Notes under the pieces: generated by a model
Told to the model about the DNA's origin: nothing
Database searches by the model: none
What the model saw: only the letters and a program-made list of their open reading frames with translations
Made by a program: the position numbers and the translations under genes
Part shown: positions 33,050 to 58,701 of the stretch, piece by piece
How positions within the stretch are numbered: position 1 is the first letter of the stretch
Layout: every line of letters starts with the position of its first letter
From: Marinibacterium anthonyi
GTDB lineage: Bacteria > Pseudomonadota > Alphaproteobacteria > Rhodobacterales > Rhodobacteraceae
Direction: 5' to 3'
NCBI GenBank assembly: GCA_003217735.2
Contig: CP031585.1
Coordinates: 979,501 to 1,043,500 of the forward strand
Length of the DNA: 64,000 nt

Positions 33050-34438
<1,389 letters not shown>

Positions 34439-34461
34439 TTGGGTGTCCTTTCTGTTTCGAC

Positions 34462-34535
34462 GGGGGAGGGGGCGCTGCCCCCTCTGGGCCTGATGGCCCA
34501 TTCACCCCCGAGAGTATTTGGGCAAAGATGAAGAT
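34462..34535 (+). repeat. Dispersed intergenic repeat, family A, copy 2 (full)
   Basis: GGGGGC-GCT-GCCCCC hairpin (34468-34482), then TGGGCC-TGAT-GGCCCA hairpin (34485-34500), then the tail CACCCCCGAGAGTATTTGGG followed by CAAAGATGAAGAT. It has the same order of parts as copy 1 and lies between lpd and the HXXEE gene, in the orientation opposite to those genes. Confidence 0.7.
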
Positions 34536-34545
34536 AGAAGGCGGG

Positions 34546-35121
34546 TCATGGGGCGGTCGGTCCGGGTTTTCGGGCGCGCAGCAGGATGGCGCCGTGCAGG
34601 GCCAGCACGAGGGCAAAGCCCACGACCTGTTGCAGGGCGCTGGCCGGGACGTGCAGGATCAGCCAGACCGACAGCGGCAGGAAGACCAGCACCGCCGTGC
34701 CGAGGCCCGGATTGTAGCGCTGCAGCCCGATGCCCTGGCCCAGGTGGATCAGGCCGTTCAACCCCAGGAGCCAGGTGGCGATGCTGCCCCAGCCGGGGTC
34801 GACCCCGGCGGCCAGCCACAGCGTCACCACCAGCAAAGCCCAGACGCCGACGATGTTGATCCAGAACACGTCCGCCCGGCTCAGCCCCCGGCGTCCGGCC
34901 AGCAGGCCGTTCACGAAGCGGCGGAAACGGTCGTCGTCATGTTCCTCGTACTGGTGCAGCATGTAGACCGGCAGCGCCAGGAAGAGACCGGTCAGCACCG
35001 GGTCGAGATGCAGCACCGGAACCAGCGCCAACAGAACCGGAGCCGCCAGCGCACCGCCATAGACCCAGTGGGTGGCGAGCCGGTCGAACCGTGTTGGCGT
35101 ATGGATCCCGGCGCCGTCCAT
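34546..35121 (-). CDS. HXXEE-domain membrane protein
   Basis: A 191-residue polytopic protein with five to six hydrophobic segments and the signature HQYEEH near residue 60, plus a later His in GLIHLGQG, matching HXXEE-domain proteins, which are thought to be membrane metal-dependent enzymes of unknown reaction. The start overlaps the MAPEG stop (TGATG); a GTG one codon earlier is also possible. It lies inside the sucB-lpd interval. Confidence 0.75.
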   Translation of the reverse strand: MDGAGIHTPTRFDRLATHWVYGGALAAPVLLALVPVLHLDPVLTGLFLALPVYMLHQYEEHDDDRFRRFVNGLLAGRRGLSRADVFWINIVGVWALLVVTLWLAAGVDPGWGSIATWLLGLNGLIHLGQGIGLQRYNPGLGTAVLVFLPLSVWLILHVPASALQQVVGFALVLALHGAILLRARKPGPTAP

Positions 35122-35513
35122 CACGACACCAGCCCGGCGATCAGCATCACCATCGTGGCGAGAAAGCCGACGAACCAGATCATCGACCGGCCCGGGGCAA
35201 GGCCCATGACGTAGGCCGGCACGTAGGCGATCCGGGCCAGCAGGTAGCCCCAGGCGCAGATCGCGGTCAGGGTCGAGGAGGCGTCGCCCAGAACCACCAC
35301 CACGACGGCGATGGTAAAGAGGATCAGCCCCTCGAAATGGTTGTTGAGTGCGCGCTGCAGCCGGCCGGTCTTGCCGACCAGCGCCCGCGGTTCGTCCCGG
35401 GGGGAGGCCGCATAGGCGCTGCCGACCTGCCGTTGGGCTGCCACCGAATAGGCGGCAAACTGGACGCCCTGCAACAGGCCGGCCAACGCCAGGGCGGTGA
35501 GTTCGGAGGTCAT
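35121..35513 (-). CDS. MAPEG family membrane protein
   Basis: A 130-residue protein with four membrane helices and the MAPEG pattern, including RLQRALNNHFEGLILF (about 51-66) and the later ARIAYVPAYVMGL. MAPEG proteins relate to microsomal glutathione transferases; bacterial members of this short type have no fixed role. It overlaps the HXXEE gene and follows sucB after 100 nt. Confidence 0.82.
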   Translation of the reverse strand: MTSELTALALAGLLQGVQFAAYSVAAQRQVGSAYAASPRDEPRALVGKTGRLQRALNNHFEGLILFTIAVVVVVLGDASSTLTAICAWGYLLARIAYVPAYVMGLAPGRSMIWFVGFLATMVMLIAGLVS

Positions 35514-35613
35514 CGCCGGGGTCCTTCGTCCGGAGCGGGCCGCCGAAGGCCCGGAGTTCTGACTGAATGTCCCATCATGGGTGTAGGGCGGGGTTTCCCC
35601 CGCCGCTCCCTGT

Positions 35614-37131
35614 TTACAGGTCCATCAGCAGGCGACGGGGATCTTCCAGCGCTTCCTTGACGCGCACCAGGAAGGTCACGGCGCCCTTGCCGTCGACGAT
35701 GCGGTGATCGTAGCTCAGCGCCAGGTACATCATCGGGCGGATCTTGATCTCGCCTCCGACGACCATCGGCCGGTCCTGGATCTTGTGCATGCCCAGGATG
35801 CCCGACTGCGGGGGGTTCAGGATCGGCGAGGACATCAGCGAGCCGTAGACACCGCCGTTGGAGATGGTGAAGGTGCCGCCCTGCATTTCCGCCATCGACA
35901 GCTTGCCGTCGCGGGCGCGCTTGCCCTTCTCGGAAATCGCTTTCTCGATCTCGGCAAAGGACATCTGGTCGACGTCGCGGATCACCGGAACCACCAGGCC
36001 CTGGGGCGTGCCGGCGGCGATGCCCATGTGGACGAAGTTCTTGTAGACCACGTCGGTGCCGTCGATCTCGGCGTTGACGTCCGGGACTTCCTTCAGGGCG
36101 TGCACGCAGGCCTTGGTGAAGAAGGACATGAAGCCAAGCCGCACGCCGTGCTTCTTCTCGAACTGGTCCTTGTACTGGTTGCGCAGCGCCATGACCTCGG
36201 TCATGTCGACCTCGTTGTAGGTGGTCAGCATGGCCGCAGTGTTCTGCGCGTCCTTCAGGCGGCGGGCGATGGTCTGGCGCAGGCGGGTCATCTTGACCCG
36301 TTCCTCGCGTGCGGCGTCCTCGGCGGCCACGGGCGCGCGCGGTGCGGAGGAGGCGGCTTGCGGTGCCGGGGCGGCGGCAGCGGCGGCCACGGCCTTTGCC
36401 ACGTCGTCCTTCATGATGCGCCCGTCACGACCGGTGCCGGTGACCTTGTCGGCGGACAGGCCGGCTTCGGCCATGGCCTTCTTGGCCGAGGGCGCGTCTT
36501 CGATATCGGCCTTGCCCGAGGCGGCGGCCGGTGCGGCGGCTGCGGCGGGCTTGGCGGCAGGCGCCGCGCCCGAGGCCGAGATCACGCCCAGCTTGGCGGC
36601 GGCATCGACGGTGGTGCCTTCGGCGGCGGTGATTTCCACCAGCACGCCGGCGGCGGGTGCGGGAACCTCGACCGACACCTTGTCGGTTTCCAGCTCGCAC
36701 AGCATCTCGTCCTGGGCGACGCTGTCGCCCACGGCCTTGAACCAGGTCGACACGGTCGCCTCGGTCACGCTTTCGCCCAGGGTGGGGACCATGACGTCGA
36801 CGCTGTCGCCGCCCTTGTCGCCGCCATTGTCATCGGACGCCGGGGCCGACGCGGCCTCGGGCTCGGCCTTGGCCGGGGCGGCGGCGGCTTCGCCACCTTC
36901 CGAGATCATCGCAAGCAGGGCGTCGACGCCGACGGTTTCACCTTCGGCGGCAACGATTTCGCCAAGCGTGCCTGCCACGGGGCTGGGCACTTCGACGGTG
37001 ACCTTGTCGGTCTCCAGCTCGCACAGCATCTCGTCCACGGCGACCGCATCGCCGGGCTTCTTGAACCAGGTTGCGACCGTGGCCTCGGTGACCGATTCGC
37101 CCAGGGTGGGCACGCGCACTTCAGTGGTCAT
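35614..37131 (-). CDS. sucB: 2-oxoglutarate dehydrogenase E2, dihydrolipoyl succinyltransferase, with two lipoyl domains
   Basis: Core of the OGDH complex, transferring succinyl from E1 to CoA. The 505-residue protein has two nearly identical N-terminal lipoyl domains with lipoylated Lys43 and Lys151 (both in ELETDKV), Ala/Pro-rich linkers, an E3-binding domain (about 212-247) and the catalytic domain ending with SYDHRIVDG (His476, Asp480). E. coli SucB has one lipoyl domain; two are known in some alphaproteobacteria. It starts four bases after the sucA stop. Confidence 0.95.
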
Positions 37132-37135
37132 GTGT

Positions 37136-40102
37136 TCAGTTTCCTTTGATCGTCAGCGCGTCGTTCACGAGCGCTTCTTGCTGTGCTTTGTGCTGGCTGG
37201 CCAGACCCGTCGCGGGCGAGGCCGAGGTGGCGCGGCCGGCATAGACGGGCCGCTTGTGCGTCGCGTTCGTCCGGCCAAGCACCCATTCGATATTGGGTTC
37301 GATGAAGCTCCAGGCGCCCTGGTTCTTCGGTTCTTCCTGGCACCAGACCATTTCCGCCTGCGGGAAGCGTTCCAGTTCCTTGACCAGCGAGATCGCCGGG
37401 AAGGGATAGAACTGTTCGACCCGCAGAAGGTAGACGTCGTCGATGCCGCGTGCGTCGCGGGCTTCCAGCAGGTCGTAATAGACCTTGCCCGAACACATCA
37501 CGACCCGCTTGATCTTGTCGTCCGCCACCAGCTTGGTGTCCGACCCGCCGGTTTCCGCATCGTCCCACAACACGCGGTGGAAGCTGGATCCGGTGGTGAA
37601 GTCCGCCGCCTTGCTGACGGCCATCTTGTGGCGCAGCAGCGACTTGGGCGTCATCATGATCAGCGGCTTGCGGAAGCTGCGGTGCAGCTGCCGGCGCAGG
37701 ATGTGGAAGTAGTTGGCCGGCGTCGTGCAGTTCGCCACGATCCAGTTGTCCTGGCCGCACATCTGCAGGAACCGTTCCAGGCGTGCCGACGAATGTTCCG
37801 GCCCCTGGCCTTCGAACCCGTGCGGCAGCAGCATGACCAGCCCCGACATCCGCAGCCATTTCGATTCACCGGAACTGATGAACTGGTCGAACATGATCTG
37901 CGCGCCGTTGGCGAAATCGCCGAACTGCGCTTCCCACAGCACCAGCGCGTTGGGTTCGGCCAGCGAATAGCCGTATTCGAACCCCAGAACCGCGTATTCC
38001 GACAGCATCGAATCGATGACTTCGTACTGCGCCTGGCCCGCCCGGATGCCGTTCAGCGGATAGAACCGCTCCTCGGTTTCCTGGTTGATCAGCGCCGAAT
38101 GGCGTTGCGAGAACGTGCCGCGCGCCGAATCCTGGCCCGCCAGGCGCACCGGGTAGCCTTCGGTCAGCAGCGACCCGAACGCCAGCGCCTCGCCGGTGGC
38201 CCAGTCGAACCCTTCGCCGGTGGCGAACATTTCCTTCTTGGTCTCGATCAGGCGCGACACGGTGCGGTGCGCCGGGAACCCGTCGGGCAGGCGGGTCAAG
38301 GCGTCGCCCAGCTCCTTCAAGGTATCGGGCGACACGGCGGTCTCGCCGCGCACGTATTCCTCGCCATGCTTGTCCAGGTGCGACCACCGCCCGTCCAGCC
38401 AGTCGGCCTTGTTGGGCTTGTAGTCCTTGCCGGCCTCGAATTCCTCGTTCAGGCGCGCCTGGAAGGCGGCCTTCATGTCCTCGATCTCGCCCTCGGGGAT
38501 CAGCCCGTCCTTGACGAGCCGCTCGGTATAAAGGCTCAGCGTGGTCTTGTGAGTCTTGATCTTCTTGTACATCACCGGGTTGGTGAACATGGGCTCGTCG
38601 CCTTCGTTGTGACCGAAGCGGCGATAGCAGAAGATGTCGATGACCACGTCCTTGTGGAACTTCTGGCGGAATTCCGTGGCGACCTTGGCGGCGTGCACCA
38701 CGGCTTCCGGGTCATCCCCGTTGACGTGGAAGATCGGCGCCTCGACCATCAGGGCGATGTCCGTCGGGTAGGGCGACGTGCGCGAGAAATGCGGCGCCGT
38801 GGTGAACCCGATCTGGTTGTTGACGATGATGTGGATCGTGCCGCCGGTGCGGTGACCGCGAATGCCCGACAGCTGCAGGCATTCCGCCACCACGCCCTGT
38901 CCGGCAAAGGCCGCGTCGCCGTGCAGCAGGATCGGCAGCACCGCGATCCGCTCGGGATCGCTCAGCTGGTCCTGCTTGGCGCGGGCCTTGCCCAGGACAA
39001 CGGGGTTCACGGCTTCCAGGTGCGACGGGTTCGCCGTCAGCGACAGGTGCACGGTGTTGCCGTCGAATTCACGGTCGCTGGACGCGCCCAGGTGGTATTT
39101 CACGTCGCCCGACCCGTCGACGTCGTCGGGTTTGAACGACCCGCCCTGGAATTCGTTGAAGATCGCCTTGTAGGGCTTCTGCAGCACGTTCGCCAGAACC
39201 GAAAGCCGGCCCCGGTGGGGCATGCCGATGACGATCTCCTTCACGCCAAGGCCACCGCCCCGCTTGATGATCTGCTCCATCGCCGGGATCAGCGCTTCGC
39301 CGCCATCCAGGCCGAACCGCTTGGTGCCCATGTACTTGACGTGCAGGAACTTCTCGAAACCCTCGGCCTCGACCATCTTGTTCAGGATCGCGCGGCGTCC
39401 CTCGCGGGTGAACTGGATCTCCTTGCCCAGCCCCTCGATCCGTTCCTTCAGCCAACCGGCTTCCTCGGGGTTCGAGATGTGCATGTACTGCAGCGCGAAG
39501 GTGCCGCAATAGGTGCGCTTCACGATCTCCATGATCTGGCGCAGCGACGCGACCTGCAGGCCCAGCACGTTGTCCAGGAAGATCGGCCGGTCCATGTCGG
39601 CCTCGGTGAACCCGAAGGTCTTGGGGTCAAGTTCCGGCTGGTTGGTGACGTCGCGCATGCCCAGCGGGTCCAGGTCGGCGGCCAGGTGGCCCCGGATCCG
39701 GTAGGCGCGGATCAGCATCAGTGCGCGCACGCTGTCCAGCACGGCCCGCTTGACCTGCTCCTCGGACACCGAGGCGCCCACGGCGGCGGCCTTTTCCTTG
39801 ATCTTCTTGCCCGCGCCCTTGGCTTCGGCGGGAACGGCCAGCGGCCATTCGCCGGTCAGCGCGGCGGTGATGTCGTCATCGGGAACCGGCGGCCAGTCGG
39901 TGCGCGCCCAGGACGGCCCGGTCGCCTCCTTCTTCACGTCCATGTCCGCGTCGCCAAGCGCCTTGAAGAACTCGGCCCAGGCGGCATCGACCGCGTTCGG
40001 GTCGGCTGCGTACTTGGCGTAAAGCTGTTCGAGATACTCGGCATTGGCCCCCTGCATGAAGGAAGAGGCGTGGAAGAGGTCGTTGGGGCTCTGGTCTGTC
40101 AT
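37136..40102 (-). CDS. sucA: 2-oxoglutarate dehydrogenase E1 component
   Basis: Thiamine-diphosphate enzyme that decarboxylates 2-oxoglutarate and passes succinyl to SucB. The 988-residue length and N-terminal [18 protein letters not shown] match SucA. The ThDP region includes [14 protein letters not shown] and [15 protein letters not shown]; the C-terminus has [21 protein letters not shown]. The start [10 protein letters not shown] (ATG 40102) is supported by the family. It has its own 284-nt upstream gap, so an internal promoter is possible in addition to read-through from sucC. Confidence 0.97.
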
Positions 40103-40245
40103 GTTTTGCCTTCCTCAGCGGATCAGGGCTGCAGGGTCACAAAGTTGCGTCGCGGCCGTTTTCAGTCGGGGAGCCGCTCCCGTAAGACATGACGCCGCAG
40201 GAGTGTCTTTCACCTCCTCCGGTGCCACGAAGTTCTCATATGCGT

Positions 40246-40261
40246 GAACCCCGCGGGGTTC
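40246..40261. promoter_or_regulatory. 16-nt perfect palindrome upstream of sucA
   Basis: GAACCCCGCGGGGTTC lies 145-160 nt upstream of the sucA start codon. It may be a regulator site or a hairpin in a leader RNA; no T-run follows on either strand. Nothing else distinct was seen in the gap. Confidence 0.4.
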
Positions 40262-40386
40262 CGGATCAATGCACATGTGCCGTCAGTTCGGTTTCGGAAA
40301 GGTTACTCTCGGGGATGTGTCCGATTTGCGGGACGTCTAGCCGTGTTTCTGCGCGGGTGGAACAGATCAATGTCATCTCTGCGCCC

Positions 40387-41211
40387 TCACAGGAACTGAA
40401 CCGTGACACCGCTGCCGAAGGTACCGCAGGCGGTCCCGTCGGAAGAGGTGTAATGCACCCAGGCGCGGTTGCCGGATGTCACCGTGAAACCGTCGCACTG
40501 GCCGGTGGAACCGCTGGGCGATCCGTCCTTGATCGACCCGGGGTAAAGCCGGTTCACCAGGGTGCGGATGGCCGGATCGGAATCGGTCATGGCGGTCCAT
40601 TCGGACCGGAACGTGCAATGGCCCTCGGGCAGGATCAGCCCGCGGACGTTGTTCTTGGTAAAGACCCGCATGCCGCTGTCCATGCCCGCGTCGGCCCAAC
40701 CGGCGGCGGCCAGCAGCCGCGCCGAAGTGGTCGGGTTGGGTCCGGCCTGCAGGCAGTTCGCGGTGCCTTCGGCCATGGCGGCGGAATCGATGGTGCGGTT
40801 GTCGTTGTCCAGCGCGGCCGCTCCGGCGACGCCAAGGCCGGCGCCTACGACGGCGGGCGTCAGAACGCCCGAGCTTGCCCCCGCGGCGGTTCCGCCCGCG
40901 GCGGCCCCTGTCGCGCCTCCGACGGCGCTTCCGGCGGTCGAGGCCGCGGCGCCCGCCACGTTGGCGGTGGTCGACACGGCGGCGCCCGCGACATTGGCCG
41001 TGGTCGACACGGCCGTCCCGGCAACATTGGCCGCGCCCGACACGGCCGAGGTGGTCGCATTGGCGACCCGGCCGACGACGGACCGTCGGCCGCAGCCGGT
41101 CAGGACAAGGGACGTGCTCAAGAGAATCAGGGCAGTGACGGTCGCGCCCCGTCGCAGCGGGCTGCGCCGGCGGGTGTCCGAAACCTTAACAGAGTCTGAA
41201 ATCGTCTCCAT
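40387..41211 (-). CDS. Alanine-rich lipoprotein of unknown function
   Basis: A 274-residue protein with a lipoprotein signal (hydrophobic about 21-38, lipobox LTGC) and an Ala/Val/Thr low-complexity region made of 11-residue repeats (STTANVAGAAV, about three copies between residues 55 and 90). The C-terminal domain (about 135-274) has four cysteines that could pair. The start METISDSVK (ATG 41211) has an AAGAGG site; the upstream extension would run through a repeat palindrome. It sits between sucD and sucA on the same strand. I do not recognise the C-terminal domain. Confidence 0.7.
   Translation of the reverse strand: METISDSVKVSDTRRRSPLRRGATVTALILLSTSLVLTGCGRRSVVGRVANATTSAVSGAANVAGTAVSTTANVAGAAVSTTANVAGAAASTAGSAVGGATGAAAGGTAAGASSGVLTPAVVGAGLGVAGAAALDNDNRTIDSAAMAEGTANCLQAGPNPTTSARLLAAAGWADAGMDSGMRVFTKNNVRGLILPEGHCTFRSEWTAMTDSDPAIRTLVNRLYPGSIKDGSPSGSTGQCDGFTVTSGNRAWVHYTSSDGTACGTFGSGVTVQFL
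40943..41045 (-). repeat. 33-nt in-frame tandem repeat in the lipoprotein gene
   Basis: About three imperfect copies of a 33-nt unit with the core ACATTGGCCGTGGTCGACAC. Read on the minus strand they encode 11-residue repeats of the TTANVAGAA type. The unit is a multiple of three, so copy-number change would keep the frame. Confidence 0.65.
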
Positions 41212-41259
41212 AACCTCTTGATTCCCTTGATGTGGAGGGATGTCCCACGCGTGGGACAC
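41212..41259. repeat. Dispersed repeat, family B, copy 2, with an 18-bp palindrome
   Basis: AACCTCTTGATTCCCTTGAT leads into the perfect palindrome TGTCCCACGCGTGGGACA (41241-41258). It fills the 63-nt gap between sucD and the lipoprotein gene, and also supplies that gene's ribosome site. It matches copy 1 at 32880-32926. Confidence 0.65.
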
Positions 41260-41274
41260 CCCCCGGTGCAGTGA

Positions 41275-42156
41275 TCAGCCGATGGCCTTCAGCACGGCTT
41301 CGCCGAGCGTCGCGGGGCTGTCGGCGACGATGATCCCGGCCGCTTTCATGGCCTCGATCTTGTCTTCCGCGCCGCCCTTGCCGCCGGCGACGATGGCGCC
41401 GGCGTGGCCCATGCGGCGGCCCGGAGGCGCGGTGCGGCCCGCGATGAAACCGGCGGTCGGCTTCCAGCGGCCCTTCTTCTTCTCGTCGGCCAGGAACTGG
41501 GCCGCGTCTTCTTCGGCCGACCCACCGATTTCGCCGATCATGATGATGGCCTCGGTTTCATCGTCCGCCAGGAACCATTCCAGCACGTCCAGGTGTTCCG
41601 TTCCCTTGATCGGATCGCCGCCGATGCCGACACAGGTCGACTGGCCCAGGCCCACATCGGTGGTCTGCTTGACGGCTTCGTAGGTCAGGGTGCCCGAACG
41701 GGACACGACGCCGACCTTGCCACGCTTGTGGATGTGGCCGGGCATGATGCCGATCTTGCAGGCGTCGGGGGTGATCACGCCGGGGCAGTTGGGGCCGATC
41801 AGGATGGATTTCGAATCCACCAGCGCCCGCTTGACCTTCATCATGTCCAGCACCGGGATGCCTTCGGTGATGCAGACGATCAGTTCCATTTCCGCGTCGA
41901 TCGCTTCCATGATGGAATCGGCCGCGAACGGGGGCGGAACGTAGATGACCGAGGCATTGGCTTCGGTGACATGCTTGGCTTCGTGGACCGAATTGAAGAC
42001 CGGCAGGTCCAGGTGCGTGGTGCCGCCCTTGCCCGGGGTAACGCCGCCGACCATCTTGGTCCCGTAAGCAATGGCCTGCTCCGAGTGGAACGTGCCTTGC
42101 GAGCCGGTGATGCCCTGGCAGATCACTTTGGTGTTTTCGTCAATTAGTACGGCCAT
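41275..42156 (-). CDS. sucD: Succinyl-CoA synthetase alpha subunit
   Basis: Forms the phosphohistidine intermediate in succinyl-CoA to succinate conversion. The 293 residues include the CoA-binding [11 protein letters not shown] near the start, [10 protein letters not shown] mid-protein and the active-site His251 in [10 protein letters not shown]. The start [10 protein letters not shown] is at ATG 42156. Unusually, a membrane glycosyltransferase gene separates it from sucC. Confidence 0.96.
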
Positions 42157-42265
42157 GGTTCTGCCTTCTGAAAGTGTTGCAGTTGGTTTGGGTGGCACGG
42201 CCCGTCCGCCTGGCGGGGGGCCGTGCAAAGCCACGAAGGGTCGGGGAAGCGCGGGTCATGTCGGC

Positions 42266-43738
42266 TCATGACGGCACCTCCACCTGGAAAAGGTTGAACG
42301 TCCGGTCCTCGTGCGGCGCCGGGTAGGGCAGGGACACGGCCTTGGGCGCGTCCAGGTCCTGAACGCCGGCCCGGTCTGCCGCGAAGTCCCGCAGGTCCTG
42401 CGGCGCCGGGGCGTCCTTTGCGTCGCGCGCCCACCAGACCACCGCCGACGGCGTGTCCGCGGCGACCCGCAGCTTGGGCAGCTCGGGGGTCAGCACGGCC
42501 AGGTCGGGTCGGATGTAGCGCAGGTTGCCGGCCAGGAAGGCATCCGAAACCAGCAGCAGACCGCCGCGAAGATCCAGCGCCTGGGCGGCGGCGGCAAACG
42601 GCGCCGACTGGTAGGACGGATTGTTCTGGCCGCGCCGCAGGTTCAGCGGGTAGGCCACCGATACGCCCACGGCGACAAAAGCCGTCACGCACAGGAACCA
42701 GCGCATCCGCGACGCGGTGATCCGGCTGGCCAGCCGCAGCGACAGGACCAGCGGCAGGAAGATCATGATCGGCTGCATCCAGCGTTCCTTGACGCTGGTC
42801 GCCCCCGACAGAAGCATCACCGCCGCGACGCCGAGGATGCCGAAGATCAGCACCGCCTCGGCCGGCTGAAGGCCGGGCGCGGGGCGTTCGCCCGTGGCGG
42901 GCCCGGTGCGGAAGACCGCAAGGAACACCACCAGCGCGACCAGCGCGGTCGACGCCAGCGCCTCGCCCAGCGAAGACAGCGCCGCGCCCACGGCCTGGAA
43001 GCCGCCATGGGACTGCAGTTCCAGCTTGTGGGACGACGCTGTTGTCAGGCTCCAGTTCTGGATCGCCCAGAAGGCCGGGGCCGCGATGATGACCAGCGCA
43101 ATCGCCAGCGCGATCAGGCTTTTGCGCGTGCGCAGGGCAGGGGTCAGCAGCACGGCCGCCAGCACGCCCAGCAGCACCAGCCCGAAGGTCCACTTGCTCA
43201 TCAATCCAAGCCCGACCAGGACGCCCGCCAGGCAGAAATCGGGCAATGCCCCGGTCCGTGCGGCGCGGGTGACCGCGACCAGGGACCAGACGGCCAGGGC
43301 CGTGGCCAGAACCGAATGGGTCAGCGCGCGCTGCGCTTCCCATACGACCGAGGGCAGGAACATTGTGCCGAACATCGCCGCCGCGGCGGTCATACGGTTT
43401 GCCCCGGACTGCCGGGCCAGAACCCAGATCCCAAGGTAGATCGCCGCCAGGCAACCATGCTTGAACAGCGCCAGGCCCAGCTTGCCTTCGCCGGTGACCT
43501 GGAACACGGCCATCTGCAGCCAAGTATAAAGCGGCGGCTGCGGTCCGTAACCCAGTTCCAGGCTTTGGGTCGTGACCATCTGTTCCGCCTCGTCGAGCCC
43601 GAGCCCGCCAGGCGCGGCCAGCCGCGAACCGAGTTGGACGCCCAGGTAGACGAGCATGAGAAGCGGCGCGAAACGCGACAGGGTCACGGACCATTCGGTC
43701 CGGGACATCTGCCCAGCAATTTCGTCCGCCTGTGTCAT
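42266..43738 (-). CDS. ArnT/PMT-type (GT-C) glycosyltransferase
   Basis: A 490-residue polytopic protein with about 11 membrane helices. The N-terminal GLDEAEQ (Asp49-Glu50) after the first helix is the catalytic acidic motif of GT-C enzymes of the ArnT/PMT (GT39/GT83) kind, and PQPPLYTWLQ and EAQRALTHSVL follow as in that group. Such enzymes move sugars from polyprenyl phosphate to lipid A, proteins or glycans in the periplasm. The substrate is unknown. The gene lies between sucC and sucD on the same strand. Confidence 0.82.
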   Translation of the reverse strand: MTQADEIAGQMSRTEWSVTLSRFAPLLMLVYLGVQLGSRLAAPGGLGLDEAEQMVTTQSLELGYGPQPPLYTWLQMAVFQVTGEGKLGLALFKHGCLAAIYLGIWVLARQSGANRMTAAAAMFGTMFLPSVVWEAQRALTHSVLATALAVWSLVAVTRAARTGALPDFCLAGVLVGLGLMSKWTFGLVLLGVLAAVLLTPALRTRKSLIALAIALVIIAAPAFWAIQNWSLTTASSHKLELQSHGGFQAVGAALSSLGEALASTALVALVVFLAVFRTGPATGERPAPGLQPAEAVLIFGILGVAAVMLLSGATSVKERWMQPIMIFLPLVLSLRLASRITASRMRWFLCVTAFVAVGVSVAYPLNLRRGQNNPSYQSAPFAAAAQALDLRGGLLLVSDAFLAGNLRYIRPDLAVLTPELPKLRVAADTPSAVVWWARDAKDAPAPQDLRDFAADRAGVQDLDAPKAVSLPYPAPHEDRTFNLFQVEVPS

Positions 43739-43760
43739 CTCGTCCTCCTGGTCGTGGGAC

Positions 43761-43780
43761 CCGGCATCGCCTGATGCCGG
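43761..43780 (-). terminator. Hairpin between sucC and the glycosyltransferase gene
   Basis: Perfect stem CCGGCATC / GATGCCGG with a 4-nt loop in the 83-nt gap after sucC. No T-run follows on the minus strand. It could cause partial termination or shield the sucC mRNA from 3' decay. Confidence 0.45.
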
Positions 43781-43821
43781 ACCCCGGATGTAGTGGGCGT
43801 TTCGCCCGGATCAGCCCCGGA

Positions 43822-45015
43822 TCAGCCTTTGACCGCCTTGACGATCTTTTCGGCGCCGTCCTTGAGGTCATCGGCGGCAATCACGGCCAGGCCGGAATTG
43901 TTGATGATGTCCTTGCCAAGTTCGACGTTGGTGCCTTCGAGACGGACAACCAGCGGCACTTTCAGGCCGACTTCCTTGACCGCGGCGATCACGCCCTCGG
44001 CGATCACGTCGCAGCGCATGATGCCACCGAAGATGTTGACCAGGATGCCTTTGACGTTCGGGTCCGAGGTGATGATCTTGAACGCCTCGGTGACCTTTTC
44101 CTTGGTGGCGCCGCCACCCACGTCCAGGAAGTTGGCCGGTTCCGCCCCGTACAGCTTGATGATGTCCATCGTCGCCATGGCCAGGCCCGCGCCGTTCACC
44201 ATGCAGCCGATTTCGCCGTCGAGCGCGATGTAGTTCAGGTCGTATTTCGACGCTTCGAGTTCCTTGGAATCCTCTTCGGTCGTGTCGCGCAGTTCGGCGA
44301 TGTCGGGATGGCGATAGATCGCGTTGCCGTCAAAGCCCAGCTTGGCGTCCAGCACCTTCAGGTCGCCGCCGTCGGTCACGATCAGCGGGTTGATCTCCAG
44401 CATCTCCATGTCCTTCTCGACGAAGGCCTTGAAGAGCATGCCCATCAGCGCGACGCACTGCTTGACCTGCGCGCCCTTCAGACCCAGCGAAAAGGCGATG
44501 CGGCGTCCGTGGAACGGCTGGTAGCCGGTGGCCGGATCAACCGAGAAGCTCAGGATCTTTTCGGGGGTCGACGCGGCGACCTCTTCGATGTCCATGCCGC
44601 CTTCGGTCGAGCACACGAAGGAAATGCGCGAGGTCACGCGATCGACCAGCAGCGCGAGGTAGAGTTCGGTCTCGATGCCCGAGCCGTCCTCGATGTAGAT
44701 GCGGTTGACCTGCTTGCCGGCGGGGCCGGTCTGGTGCGTGACCAGGGTGCGGCCCAGCATTTTCTTGGCTTCTTCGGCAGCTTCTTCCACCGACTTGGCC
44801 AGGCGCACGCCGCCTTTTTCACCAGCGTCAGCTTCCTTGAACGACCCCTTGCCGCGTCCGCCCGCGTGGATCTGTGCCTTGACGACCCAGAGCGGCCCGT
44901 CCAGTTCACTTGCCGCGGTCTTGGCTTCTTCGGCCTTGAGGACGACGCGACCGTCCGACACCGGAGCGCCGTAGCTGCGCAGCAGGGCCTTTGCCTGGTA
45001 TTCGTGGATGTTCAT
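43822..45015 (-). CDS. sucC: Succinyl-CoA synthetase beta subunit
   Basis: Nucleotide-binding subunit of succinyl-CoA synthetase. The 397-residue protein begins [20 protein letters not shown] with the ATP-grasp domain following, and contains [14 protein letters not shown] and a C-terminal [13 protein letters not shown]. Length is typical. It is the first gene of a minus-strand run through sucA, sucB and lpd, and its upstream gap carries the paired TGTGATCACA sites. Confidence 0.97.
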
Positions 45016-45124: not shown

Positions 45125-45155
45125 TGTGATCACACGTTTTCTGGGTGTGATCACA
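45125..45155 (-). promoter_or_regulatory. Paired TGTGATCACA palindromes upstream of sucC
   Basis: Two perfect copies of TGTGATCACA (45125-45134 and 45146-45155) are spaced 21 bp start to start, two turns of the helix. They lie 110-140 nt upstream of the sucC start codon. The same pair with identical spacing precedes sdhC. They are probably an operator for a dimeric regulator of TCA genes. The rest of the 386-nt gap 45016-45401 also serves the divergent beta-barrel gene; no gene or clear -10/-35 was identified in it. Confidence 0.75.
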
Positions 45156-54173: not shown

Positions 54174-54204
54174 TGTGATCACACTCTGGTTTGCTGTGAT
54201 CACA
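54174..54204 (+). promoter_or_regulatory. Paired TGTGATCACA palindromes upstream of sdhC
   Basis: Perfect TGTGATCACA at 54174-54183 and 54195-54204, 21 bp apart start to start, 114-144 nt upstream of the sdhC start codon. Read toward each gene, both this and the sucC site show TTGTGATCACAC, nine bases, then TGTGATCACA. The shared spacing and distance point to one regulator for both TCA operons. Confidence 0.78.
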
Positions 54205-54216
54205 TCCCCCGAAAAA

Positions 54217-54284
54217 GTGACAATCCGCGCCAAAAAACCGCGCTGCGAAGCAGCGAGGTGCCGTGACAGCCGCGCAAAAAACCG
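54217..54284 (+). repeat. Imperfect direct repeats around a hairpin in the sdhC leader
   Basis: GTGACAATCCGCGCCAAAAA (from 54217, ending ACCG at 54240) and GTGACAGCCGCGCAAAAAAC (from 54263, ending CG at 54284) flank the hairpin CGCTGC-GAA-GCAGCG (54241-54255). They lie between the operator and sdhC, in the promoter or 5' UTR. Confidence 0.55.
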
Positions 54285-54317
54285 TAGAACAGGTGTATCC
54301 AACGGAAAGGACATGCC

Positions 54318-54701
54318 ATGGCCGACGTGAACCGCGGCGCTCGCCCCCTGTCGCCGCACCTGCAGATTTACCGACCCCAGTGGACTTCGTTCAGCTCCAT
54401 CATGGTCCGGGCAACCGGCATCGCCTGTTACGGTTTGGCGATCCTGGTCGTGGCCTGGTTCCTCGCAGCCGCGGGATCCGAACGCGCCTTTGAAATCGTC
54501 GACGGTCTGCTGACCAGCTGGCTGGGCGATCTGATCATGTTCCTTGGAACCTGGGCGATCTGGTACCACATGCTGGGCCGTCTGCGTCACGTCATCTGGG
54601 ATCTGGGCTATCTGCTTGAGGTCGACGTGTCCGAGAAAATGGCGATCGGCATGGTGGCGGTTGCGACCGTCCTGACCATCCTGACGGCTATCGTGGTATA
54701 A
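54318..54701 (+). CDS. sdhC: Succinate dehydrogenase cytochrome b556 subunit
   Basis: Membrane anchor carrying heme b and part of the quinone site. The 127 residues have three helices, RPLSPHLQIY near the start, Ser27 and Arg31 at the positions of the E. coli quinone-site residues, and heme-ligand His84 in WYHMLGRLRH. AAAGGAC precedes ATG 54318. It is the first gene of the sdh operon. Confidence 0.94.
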   Translation: MADVNRGARPLSPHLQIYRPQWTSFSSIMVRATGIACYGLAILVVAWFLAAAGSERAFEIVDGLLTSWLGDLIMFLGTWAIWYHMLGRLRHVIWDLGYLLEVDVSEKMAIGMVAVATVLTILTAIVV

Positions 54702-54713
54702 GGAGCCCTGAAC

Positions 54714-55085
54714 ATGAGATTTCTCACGGATCGCAAACGTGCCGAAGGGCTTGGGGCCGCCGGAACCGGAACCCAGGAACACTGGCAGATGATGATCAGC
54801 TCGGCCGCCCTGGTCGTTCTGGTCCCGCTTTTCGTCTTCACCTTCGGATCCGCCCTGGGCGGCACCTACGAAGACGTTCTGGCCTATTACAGCCGTCCTT
54901 TCCCCGCCGTCGTCGCCGCGCTGACCCTGGTGGTCGGCGTGATCCACATGACGCGCGAAGTGCAGGACGCAATCGTGGACTATGTGCATGGCGTGGCCGG
55001 CAAGGCGGCCTTCGTGGCCGCCGGTGCCTTTGCCTGGGTGGTGATCGCCGCCGGGCTTTTCGCACTTGTCAAACTCGCGCTCTGA
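54714..55085 (+). CDS. sdhD: Succinate dehydrogenase membrane anchor subunit
   Basis: Second membrane anchor of complex II. The 123 residues form three helices with the signature [19 protein letters not shown]: His78 is the likely heme ligand and Tyr90, 12 residues on, the quinone-site tyrosine, the same spacing as in E. coli SdhD. An AAGGAG that overlaps the sdhC stop region serves it. Confidence 0.92.
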
Positions 55086-55098
55086 AGGACGAAGACCA

Positions 55099-56904
55099 AT
55101 GGCAGAATATGATTACGAGACGCATGAATATGACGTCGTGGTCGTGGGTGCGGGTGGCGCGGGTCTGCGCGCAACCCTCGGCATGGCCGAACAGGGGCTG
55201 CGCACGGCCTGCGTGACCAAGGTCTTCCCGACCCGGTCGCACACCGTGGCCGCGCAGGGCGGCATTGCCGCGTCGCTGTCGAACATGGGCCCAGACAACT
55301 GGCAGTGGCACATGTACGACACCGTCAAGGGGTCGGACTGGCTGGGCGATACGGACGCGATGGAATACCTCGCCCGCGAAGCGCCCAAGGCTGTCTATGA
55401 ACTGGAACATTACGGCGTGCCGTTTTCGCGTACCGAAGAGGGCAAGATCTATCAACGCCCGTTCGGCGGCCATACCACCGAATTTGGTGAAGGCCCCCCG
55501 GTGCAGCGCACCTGCGCGGCCGCCGACCGGACCGGCCACGCGATCCTGCACACGCTGTATGGCCAGTCGCTGAAGAACAACGCGGAATTCTACATCGAGT
55601 ATTTCGCCATCGACCTGATCATGTCCGACGACGGCGTGTGCCAGGGCGTGGTGTGCTGGAAGCTTGACGACGGCACGATGCATGTCTTCAACGCCAAGAT
55701 GGTCGTGCTGGCCACCGGCGGCTACGGGCGCGCCTATTTCTCGGCCACCTCGGCCCATACCTGCACCGGCGACGGTGGCGGCATGGTGGCCCGCGCGGGC
55801 CTGGCGCTGCAGGACATGGAATTCGTCCAGTTCCACCCCACCGGCATCTACGGATCCGGCTGCCTGATCACCGAAGGCGCGCGGGGCGAGGGCGGTTACC
55901 TGACCAACTCGGAAGGCGAACGGTTCATGGAGCGTTACGCGCCCCAGTACAAGGACCTGGCGCCGCGTGACTACGTCAGCCGGTCGATGACCATGGAGAT
56001 CCGCGAAGGCCGCGGCGTGGGCGAACATAAGGACCACATCTTCCTGAACCTCAACCACCTGCCGGCCGAAGCGCTGGCGGAACGCCTGCCGGGCATTTCG
56101 GAATCGGCGAAGATCTTTGCCGGCGTGGACGTGACCAAGGAACCGATCCCGGTTCTGCCGACCGTGCACTACAACATGGGCGGTATCCCCACGAACTACT
56201 GGGGCGAGGTTCTGAACCCGACAGAGGACAACCCGACCGGCGTGGTCCCTGGCCTGATGGCCGTGGGCGAAGCCGGCTGTGCGTCGGTCCACGGGGCGAA
56301 CCGCCTCGGGTCCAACTCGCTGATCGACCTGGTGGTGTTCGGCCGCGCCTCGGCCATCCGCGCCGGCAAGGTGGTGGACCCGGACGCGGCGACGCCGGCG
56401 CCGAACAAGGCGTCGATCGACAAGGCATTCGCCCGCTTCGATCACTACCGCAACGCCGATGGCGGCACGCCGACGGCCGAACTGCGGCTTGAGATGCAGC
56501 GCACCATGCAGTCCGACGCCGCCGTGTTCCGGGAATCCAAGACGTTGGAAGAAGGCGTCGTGAAGATGACCGAGATCGCCGCCAAGCTGGACGATCTGAA
56601 GGTGACCGACCGGTCGCTGGTCTGGAACTCGGACCTGATGGAAACGCTGGAACTGACCAACCTGATGCCCAACGCCCTGGCCACCATCTATGGCGCCGAG
56701 GCCCGCAAGGAGAGCCGCGGGGCGCATGCCCACGAGGATTATTCCACGCGCGACGACGAGAACTGGCGTGTCCACACCGTCAGCCGCGTCGATGGCAACA
56801 ACGTCACGCTGACCTACCGCCCGGTGATCGTCGATCCGCTGACCACCGAGGACGAAGGCGGCATCTCGCTGAAGAAGATCGCGCCCAAGGCGCGGACGTT
56901 CTGA
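55099..56904 (+). CDS. sdhA: Succinate dehydrogenase flavoprotein subunit
   Basis: Catalytic subunit oxidising succinate to fumarate. The 601 residues carry the FAD motif GAGGAGL (18-24), covalent FAD site His48 in [30 protein letters not shown] and the C-terminal DDENWRVHT. Start ATG 55099; an in-frame start 33 nt upstream lies inside sdhD and is rejected. A sulfotransferase-like gene follows before sdhB. Confidence 0.97.
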
Positions 56905-56974
56905 TGGCACGTATCGGGGGCTGCTTCGCCGCGCGGCGCGGCCCTCGGACCTGCGCGGAGTGCGGGGGCAGGGC

Positions 56975-57832
56975 ATGAACATGGCCCTGCAGTCCGACGG
57001 CCTGTCAGCTCCGGATTTCCGGCCCGGCCGGGTTCTGCGGGTCTATGGCATGCGCCGGTCCGGCAACCACGCGATCCTCGACGCCTTCCTGCGCAATGCG
57101 CCGGGCGGCAACGCGGTGTTCTTCAACAATTGCAAGAACGCGCAGGACCCGGTCGCCAGCCATCGCAGCCTGGATCTGCGCCGCGGTGGCGAAGCGGTGA
57201 AACCCCAGGGCGCGCTGGCCGCGTCGCTGGACCTGCCGGGGCCCAGGCCGCTGACCGTCGTGTCGATCGAGGACGCCATGCCCGGTAACCGCCTGCGCCC
57301 CCTCTGGGGCGGCGAGGAGAAGGTCGTGGTGATCTACCGCAGCTTTCTCAACTGGGCGGCCTCGCTTCTTCACAAGATCAAGGGCAACGCCGCGTACGGT
57401 GCCCTGGAACGGGCGCGGATCATGACCAATGCCTGCCGGACCTATGGCAAGGCACTGGACATCGCCGGGGATCCCGGCGCCATCCGTCCCGTTCTGTACG
57501 ACGACTGGATCGCATCGGCGGACTATCGCGCCGACGTGCTGACGGACCTCGGGCTTCAGGCGCATGACCTCGGCCTTGGCGAAGTCCAGCGCTATGGCGG
57601 TGGGTCGTCCTTCGAACCGCAGGTCCGCGACGCGGCCGTCCTTGGCACCGACCGGCGCGCCGACCTTCTGGCCGACGATCCCGAATTCGGGATGCTGCTG
57701 TGGCTCGTGGCTCATGATCTGGACCTGTCGCAGCGCATCGCCGCCCATTTTCCGGCCGATGCGGACCGCATCCTTGGCCTGGCCCGGTCCGCCGGGCTGA
57801 CCTTTCATCTGCCAGAAGGAGGACGCGCATGA
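56975..57832 (+). CDS. Sulfotransferase-like P-loop protein
   Basis: A 285-residue protein between sdhA and sdhB. YGMRRSGNHAILDAFL near the N-terminus resembles the PAPS-binding 5' loop of sulfotransferases, and KVVVIYRSFLNWAASLLHKI resembles the 3'-phosphate loop (R-x6-S). The rest is helical. No exported signal. ATG 56975 is chosen among GTG 56960 and ATG 56981. Real sulfotransfer is not shown; it may be a degenerate P-loop protein. Base composition matches its neighbours. Confidence 0.65.
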   Translation: MNMALQSDGLSAPDFRPGRVLRVYGMRRSGNHAILDAFLRNAPGGNAVFFNNCKNAQDPVASHRSLDLRRGGEAVKPQGALAASLDLPGPRPLTVVSIEDAMPGNRLRPLWGGEEKVVVIYRSFLNWAASLLHKIKGNAAYGALERARIMTNACRTYGKALDIAGDPGAIRPVLYDDWIASADYRADVLTDLGLQAHDLGLGEVQRYGGGSSFEPQVRDAAVLGTDRRADLLADDPEFGMLLWLVAHDLDLSQRIAAHFPADADRILGLARSAGLTFHLPEGGRA

Positions 57833-57895
57833 CCCCCTTCTTCCGACCCCAGAGATCCCGGCCAACAGCCGGAGACGCGCACCAGGAGACGAGAC

Positions 57896-58678
57896 ATGGT
57901 TGAATTCACGCTACCCAAAAACTCGCGTATCCGCACCGGCAAGACCTGGCCCAAGCCCGAAGGCGCCAAGACTGTCCGCAAGTTCCAGATCTATCGCTGG
58001 AACCCCGATGACGGGGAAAACCCCCGGGTCGATACGTATTTCATCGACATGGACAAGTGCGGCCCGATGGTCCTGGACGCGCTGATCAAGATCAAGAACG
58101 AGATCGATCCGACGCTGACGTTCCGCCGGTCCTGCCGCGAAGGCATCTGCGGATCCTGCGCCATGAACATCGGCGGCATCAACACCCTGGCCTGCATCTA
58201 CGGCCTGGACGAGGTGCATGGCGAGACGGTCAAGATCTACCCGCTGCCGCACATGCCGGTGGTCAAGGACCTGATCCCCGACCTGACGCACTTCTACGCG
58301 CAGCACGCGTCGATCATGCCCTGGCTGGAAACCAAGACGAACCGGCCCGCCAAGGAATGGAAGCAGTCCATCGAGGACCGCAAGAAGCTGGACGGCCTGT
58401 ACGAATGCGTGATGTGCGCGTCCTGCTCGACGTCCTGCCCCAGCTACTGGTGGAACGGCGATCGCTACCTCGGCCCCGCCGCGCTGCTGCACGCCTACCG
58501 CTGGATCATCGACAGCCGTGACGAAGCCACCGGCGAGCGTCTGGACGAGCTTGAGGATCCCTTCAAGCTGTACCGCTGCCACACGATCATGAACTGCGCC
58601 AAGACCTGCCCCAAGGGTCTGAACCCGGCCAAGGCGATCGCCGAGATCAAGAAGATGATGGTCGAACGGGTCGTCTGA
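57896..58678 (+). CDS. sdhB: Succinate dehydrogenase iron-sulfur subunit
   Basis: Electron wire of complex II. The 260 residues have the 2Fe-2S ligands Cys80, Cys85, Cys88 and Cys100 ([10 protein letters not shown]) and the cluster-binding [16 protein letters not shown] (Cys171, Cys174, Cys177, Cys181) with later cysteines in [14 protein letters not shown] precedes ATG 57896. It ends the sdh operon, followed by a terminator. Confidence 0.97.
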
Positions 58679-58701
58679 CCCTGTTGTGATCACGAAGACG
58701 C

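Follow-up and report, generated by a model that had tools for sequence, protein, structure and literature searches.

The 64,000-nucleotide stretch of the Marinibacterium anthonyi genome analysed here (GenBank assembly GCA_003217735.2, contig CP031585.1, positions 979,501 to 1,043,500 of the forward strand; hereafter the window) contains two tricarboxylic acid (TCA) cycle operons, each preceded by a pair of perfect 10-bp palindromes, TGTGATCACA. A probable sucC-sucD-sucA-sucB-lpd transcription unit with interposed genes occupies 33050-45015 on the minus strand (sucC 43822-45015; sucD 41275-42147; sucA 37136-40102; sucB 35614-37131; lpd 33050-34441), while sdhC, sdhD, sdhA and sdhB, with one interposed frame at 56960-57832, lie at 54318-58678 on the plus strand. 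Pfam matches in the neighbourhood comprise succinyl-CoA synthetase, the E1 and E2 components of 2-oxoglutarate dehydrogenase, a lipoamide-dehydrogenase-like protein, malate dehydrogenase and all four succinate dehydrogenase subunits; SdhA shares 96% identity with its Marinibacterium profundimaris counterpart.

The palindromes before sucC (start codon at 45015, minus strand) are a promoter-proximal copy at 45125-45134, which is conserved in relatives, and a distal copy at 45146-45155; those before sdhC (start codon at 54318, plus strand) are a distal copy at 54174-54183 and a promoter-proximal copy at 54195-54204. The sites are assigned no strand. Both pairs measure 21 bp from centre to centre and lie at similar distances from the gene they precede, 110-140 nt 5′ of sucC and 114-144 nt 5′ of sdhC; the coordinates, spacing and distances given in an earlier, sequence-only reading of the window were all correct on recount. 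That reading had also held that the context of the half-sites matches. This is true of the distal sites, which both read TTGTGATCACAC on the coding strand, but not of the 11-bp spacers or of the flanks 3′ of the proximal sites, which differ between the two pairs. In total, the window holds four perfect copies and one with a single mismatch, against 1.15 expected at up to one mismatch, and none of 100 shuffles of the window gave five copies. The one-mismatch copy, TGTGATCACG, lies at 58685-58694, 6 nt 3′ of the sdhB stop codon; because none of the 80 other loci examined (see below) has a counterpart of the core octamer just after sdhB, it was rejected as a meaningful site and taken as a chance occurrence.

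Conservation of the pair was analysed in 61 genomes (M. anthonyi itself, G000, and 60 relatives; 37 in the family and 24 outside it) by scanning for exact pairs of the octamer GTGATCAC with gaps of N2 to N32 and tallying the listing by hand. The 37 family genomes contain 61 such pairs, of which 53 are spaced by 21 bp, 2 by 20 bp and 6 differently, and 31 of these genomes have at least one pair at 20-21 bp. None of the 24 outside genomes does; their four pairs stand at 12, 18, 22 and 32 bp. Of 31 pair loci that were retrieved, 27 are immediately upstream of sucC and 3 upstream of sdhC, and the remaining one is a three-mismatch match in the outside genome G040. A second sample consisted of 80 named loci (L032-L111), chosen by SdhA similarity, plus the window. 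It yielded 53 usable sucC starts, the other 28 loci having no sucC match, and 73 usable sdhC starts; the eight left out were L044, without sdhC, six in which the match starts too far into the protein (L093, L099, L100, L105, L106 and L109), and L095, with too little upstream sequence though a 21-bp pair is present. An exact-octamer pair at 21 bp occurs in 46 of the 53 sucC and 50 of the 73 sdhC upstream regions. Other spacings between neighbouring octamers are 20 bp (three), 22 bp (none) and 26 bp (one) for sucC, and 20 bp (eight), 22 bp (two), 26 bp (none) and at least 55 bp (eight) for sdhC. The 320 nt preceding sucC contain no octamer in L103, L109 and L110, and the octamer is likewise missing upstream of sdhC in L059, L078, L081, L082, L084, L098, L102, L103 and L110. 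The sequence-only reading had suggested such a scan of related genomes. It had also considered chance repetition of the pair very unlikely, a view borne out by most of the relatives examined, where pairs spaced by 20-21 bp precede sucC and sdhC again.

Longer arrays were also seen upstream of sucC, with three copies in L063 (361-412) and four in L101 (482-559), made of 21-bp steps plus one 26-bp step.

A motif search downstream of the sdhC pair retrieved a strong promoter-like motif, GTGACA followed, mostly after 16 bp, by a TA-rich −10 element. In the window, the predicted −35 box (GTGACA, 54263-54268, plus strand) is placed 59 nt beyond the proximal octamer, with the predicted −10 box (TAGAAC, 54285-54290, plus strand) 16 nt after it; a second candidate −35 box stands 13 nt past the octamer. 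Fifty-eight sdhC promoters had both pair and box, and L096 had no box. Nine promoters with several boxes, the window included, were left out; eight of these do have a box at 57-60 nt, and L075 has boxes at 71 and 121 nt. Among the 49 promoters with one candidate box, the main class of 35 has its box starting 57-60 nt past the proximal octamer; in the remaining 14 the box starts at 46-48, 69, 78-80 or 90 nt, that is, about one helical turn less, or one, two or three turns more, than in the main class. The mean cosine of these 14 relative to the main class is 0.888 at a period of 10.5 bp; periods of 8, 9, 13 and 14 bp give negative values. In 100,000 random draws, uniform over 40-95 nt excluding 56-61, no value as high was obtained, either with all 14 or after the promoters had been thinned by hand, from names and distances, to eight groups. 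Such whole-turn distances suggest that turns are gained or lost between pair and polymerase with both remaining on roughly one helical face. The same search upstream of sucC gave A-tracts and no credible promoter, so the phasing is limited to sdhC. With centres near −97 (proximal) and −118 relative to the predicted start, the sdhC pair would be placed as expected of an activator in contact with RNA polymerase from upstream.

The regulators AkgR and CceR of Rhodobacter sphaeroides had been named by the sequence-only reading with no choice between them. We take AkgR to be the product of RSP_0981. GTGATCAC, the palindrome present in the pairs of the window, is reported among the binding sites of AkgR, a transcriptional activator (PMC6365646). 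The predicted targets of RSP_0981, a GntR-family regulator, are sucCD, sdh and sucAB (PMC4344238), the very operons, sucCD(AB) and sdh, that the pairs precede here. Because its word is in print, AkgR is favoured over CceR and is the likely owner of the shared operator.

A candidate gene was found by scanning and comparing the GntR genes of five family genomes. It lies outside the window, ~420 kb away (G000:C1:602307-602951, minus strand), and encodes 215 aa with a GntR winged helix (PF00392, E 9.6e-14) and an FCD effector domain (PF07729, E 8.2e-16); no NCBIfam model reached its cut-off, and the best match among solved structures was McbR (4p9f). With orthologues of the candidate defined by at least 48% identity and E up to 1e-35, 30 of the 31 pair genomes encode one, against none of the six family genomes without the pair and none of the 24 outside genomes. 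The probability of this co-occurrence by chance would be ~3 in a million by hand calculation if the 37 genomes were independent, which they are not. In an SdhA tree with 10 of its 27 inner branches drawn open and an odd placement of G005, the pairless genomes do not group together: G031 and G023 fall inside the pair-bearing set, and G006, G010 with G019, and G016 nearer the base. In 11 of the 30 genomes the candidate gene is at most 16 kb from a pair on the same contig, and in Fertoeibacter (L086) and Gemmobacter (L080) it is downstream of sdhB, in agreement with the closeness of the gene numbers RSP_0981 and RSP_0974-6. Clustering of the open frames of the 80 loci revealed, by eye among the clusters listed, no GntR common to the sdh neighbourhoods.

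The co-occurrence comparison also covered the paralogues of the candidate and two further GntR families, A and B. At a cut-off of E 1e-35, paralogues of 35-42% identity are listed for 17 pair genomes out of 31 and for none of the six pairless ones. Families A and B were rejected as owners: at least three of the six pairless genomes have matches to each, and one or two of the pair genomes asked have none. Family B (nine genomes asked) has matches in the pairless G006, G019 and G023 and a 31% match in G031, and none in the pairless G010 and G016 or the pair genome G035. Family A (14 genomes asked) has matches in the pairless G006 and G023, and in G019 at 41%, and none in the pairless G010, G016 and G031 or the pair genomes G032 and G035. 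Genes of this family are also found close to sdh at two loci (L038 and L111), so that neighbourhood alone is not decisive.

In G000 and G018 the candidate gene itself has TGTGATCACA directly 5′ of its start. Among 29 orthologues with a complete 5′ end (the 30th, in G029, is cut by the contig end), 17 carry a single GTGATCAC close upstream of their own start. In 16 of the 17 a TTGA(C/T) box starts exactly 18 nt before the first base of the octamer, and in G005 20 nt before it, so that, given the usual spacer, the octamer would overlap the −10 region. An ATG, counted irrespective of frame, occurs within 11 nt past the octamer in all 17, which suggests a nearly leaderless message; in G000 the first such ATG is not in frame, and the start itself lies 9 nt away. 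The position is that of a repressing site and points to autorepression.

Taken together, these results are best explained if the pairs are tandem activating operators of an AkgR orthologue of the GntR family, FCD subfamily, encoded elsewhere in the genome, a reading to which we give a probability of roughly 85%. Each 10-bp palindrome would bind one dimer, and two dimers two helical turns apart would stand on one face of the DNA, as the 21-bp spacing implies, upstream of the −35 box. Probably acting cooperatively and in response to an effector, they would jointly activate the suc operon (succinyl-CoA synthetase and probably 2-oxoglutarate dehydrogenase) and the sdh operon through contact with RNA polymerase, most likely with its alpha C-terminal domain. 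The same protein would probably repress its own gene via the single copy over its −10 region. The shared operator bound by two dimers on one face, as the sequence-only reading had pictured it, is supported by the conserved 20-21-bp spacing and the helical phasing to the sdhC promoter.

Several observations weigh against this explanation. The outside genome G040 has a 21-bp pair at up to three mismatches, and L078, L082, L084 and L098 retain the sucC pair without an sdhC pair. The pair genome G021 (91% complete) has only a 38% paralogue of the candidate, and the pairless status of G023 is weak (79% complete) and hardly counts, since just 2 nt lie upstream of its SdhA match. Twelve of the 29 orthologues have no self-site. 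The definition of the −35 box was set after the results of the promoter motif search had been seen, and the phasing covers sdhC alone. Orthology to RSP_0981 is presumed from the protein family, the target operons, the motif and the gene neighbourhood, and activation from the work of others in another genus. Finally, paralogues may share the word, as the proposal of GTGATCAC for PS417_07240 of Pseudomonas, a protein 32% identical to AkgR, illustrates (PMC6365646).

The last point leads to the idea that a paralogous FCD-GntR protein, alone or together with the AkgR orthologue, binds the tandem operator, the word being a code shared among paralogues. The proposal for PS417_07240 fits this idea, as does the absence of the paralogues, like that of the candidate, from all six pairless genomes, and a copy of TGTGATCACA lies ~240 bp past the end of a paralogue gene (G000:C1:5207056-5207655), inside a neighbouring predicted frame. 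Yet the paralogue occurs in scarcely more than half of the pair genomes, compared with nearly all for the candidate, which in addition has its own-promoter copy in most orthologues, a feature not looked for in the paralogue's relatives; we therefore regard this alternative as unlikely. Many FCD-GntR proteins are repressors, and the single self-site occupies a repressing position over the presumed −10 region, both of which would suit a cooperative repressing operator for sdh and suc that the regulator leaves on binding a TCA intermediate. The pair, on the other hand, lies upstream of the predicted sdhC −35 box at about whole-turn distances, an activating position, and AkgR is called an activator in PMC6365646, which makes repression about as improbable as a paralogous owner.

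We consider it very improbable that the LacI-type regulator CceR, presumably the product of RSP_1663, is the protein at the TGTGATCACA pairs. PMC4344238 does predict sdh and mdh as targets of RSP_1663 in R. sphaeroides; nevertheless, the word of the pairs is assigned in PMC6365646 to AkgR. CceR belongs to another family with a presumably different motif: the pairs read TGTGATCACA, unlike the putative LacI-like word, and the LacI-like palindrome stands apart from the pairs in several promoters. Moreover, succinate dehydrogenase is reported to lie outside the CceR regulon of Paracoccus denitrificans, yet the Paracoccus loci L074 and L077 carry the pair. Least credible of all is chance, or a sequence bias of the genome that favours the word. 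The whole genome (6.8 Mb) does contain 85 perfect 10-mers of TGTGATCACA, against 1-10 in five relatives of 2.4-3.6 Mb, and of the 46 that were inspected, the remaining 39 being left out, 32 fall within genes predicted by a crude gene finder. The single copies are thus not specific, and the 85 were rejected as one regulon. But random placement of 85 copies would give ~0.001 pairs at one fixed spacing (hand calculation), a genome-wide scan (6.81 Mb, 13 contigs) at up to three mismatches found the pair only at the sucC and sdhC sites, and pairs at 20-21 bp recur before these same genes in most relatives examined.

The LacI-type palindrome, TGTTAGCGCTAACA, which we take to be CceR-like, is itself enriched, its best match standing at up to three mismatches in 17 of the 73 sdhC regions (~0.6 expected from letter shuffles) and in 9 of the 53 sucC regions (~0.3 expected). 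Its distances to the AkgR pairs look helically phased (R 0.75 at 10.75 bp, and also 0.69 at 9.5 bp) over 24 matches, not independent of one another, in the sdhC and sucC upstream regions of L032-L111.

Within the operons, a 490-aa membrane-protein-like frame (42266-43738) stands between sucC and sucD. Across loci L032-L111, between ~5 nt and ~2.9 kb separate the sdhA match from the sdhB match, and in the window this gap holds the interposed frame of 290 aa (56960-57832); the gap looks like an insertion hot spot within the operon.

The regulator, its word and its target operons are already known from R. sphaeroides. The AkgR (RSP_0981) regulon described there shares with the present system the word GTGATCAC, the predicted targets sucCD, sdh and sucAB and a GntR-family regulator, and what differs here is that the candidate gene of G000 lies so far from the operons. 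PS417_07240, the regulator of a deoxyribonate cluster in Pseudomonas simiae, is likewise GntR-like with GTGATCAC proposed as its site; it differs, according to PMC6365646, in that its palindrome lies at −47 to −40 before its own gene and its target is catabolic. Class I activators such as CRP have the same upstream position and whole-turn spacing rule, but belong to an unrelated protein family, and here two sites lie two turns apart. Searches for AkgR, and for GntR with succinate dehydrogenase, sucC or Rhodobacterales, returned no paper on operator geometry as judged by titles and the starts of abstracts, the primary AkgR paper being outside the search; a search with the bare 10-mer, judged in the same way, returned no paper about AkgR. 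The tandem geometry, the phasing and the self-site may be new, unless that primary paper already describes them.

A more far-reaching interpretation, to which we give somewhat less than even odds, is that AkgR reads the geometry of its sites: two copies, two turns from each other and at about whole-turn distances from the −35 box, would mean ‘activate’, and a single copy overlapping the −10 region of its own gene, with the nearly leaderless message, would mean ‘repress’. The pairs, the promoter and the LacI-type, CceR-like palindrome would then form a phased assembly kept throughout the family while the intervening sequence drifted. Activators seem less common than repressors in the GntR family, and the arrangement before sdhC would provide a simple spacing rule for the possible mode of action of a GntR-type activator. 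Altogether, the findings link a conserved motif to a named regulator of central carbon metabolism across a large family of mostly marine bacteria and, as the pairs look specific where single copies do not, may help to predict AkgR targets in unstudied genomes.
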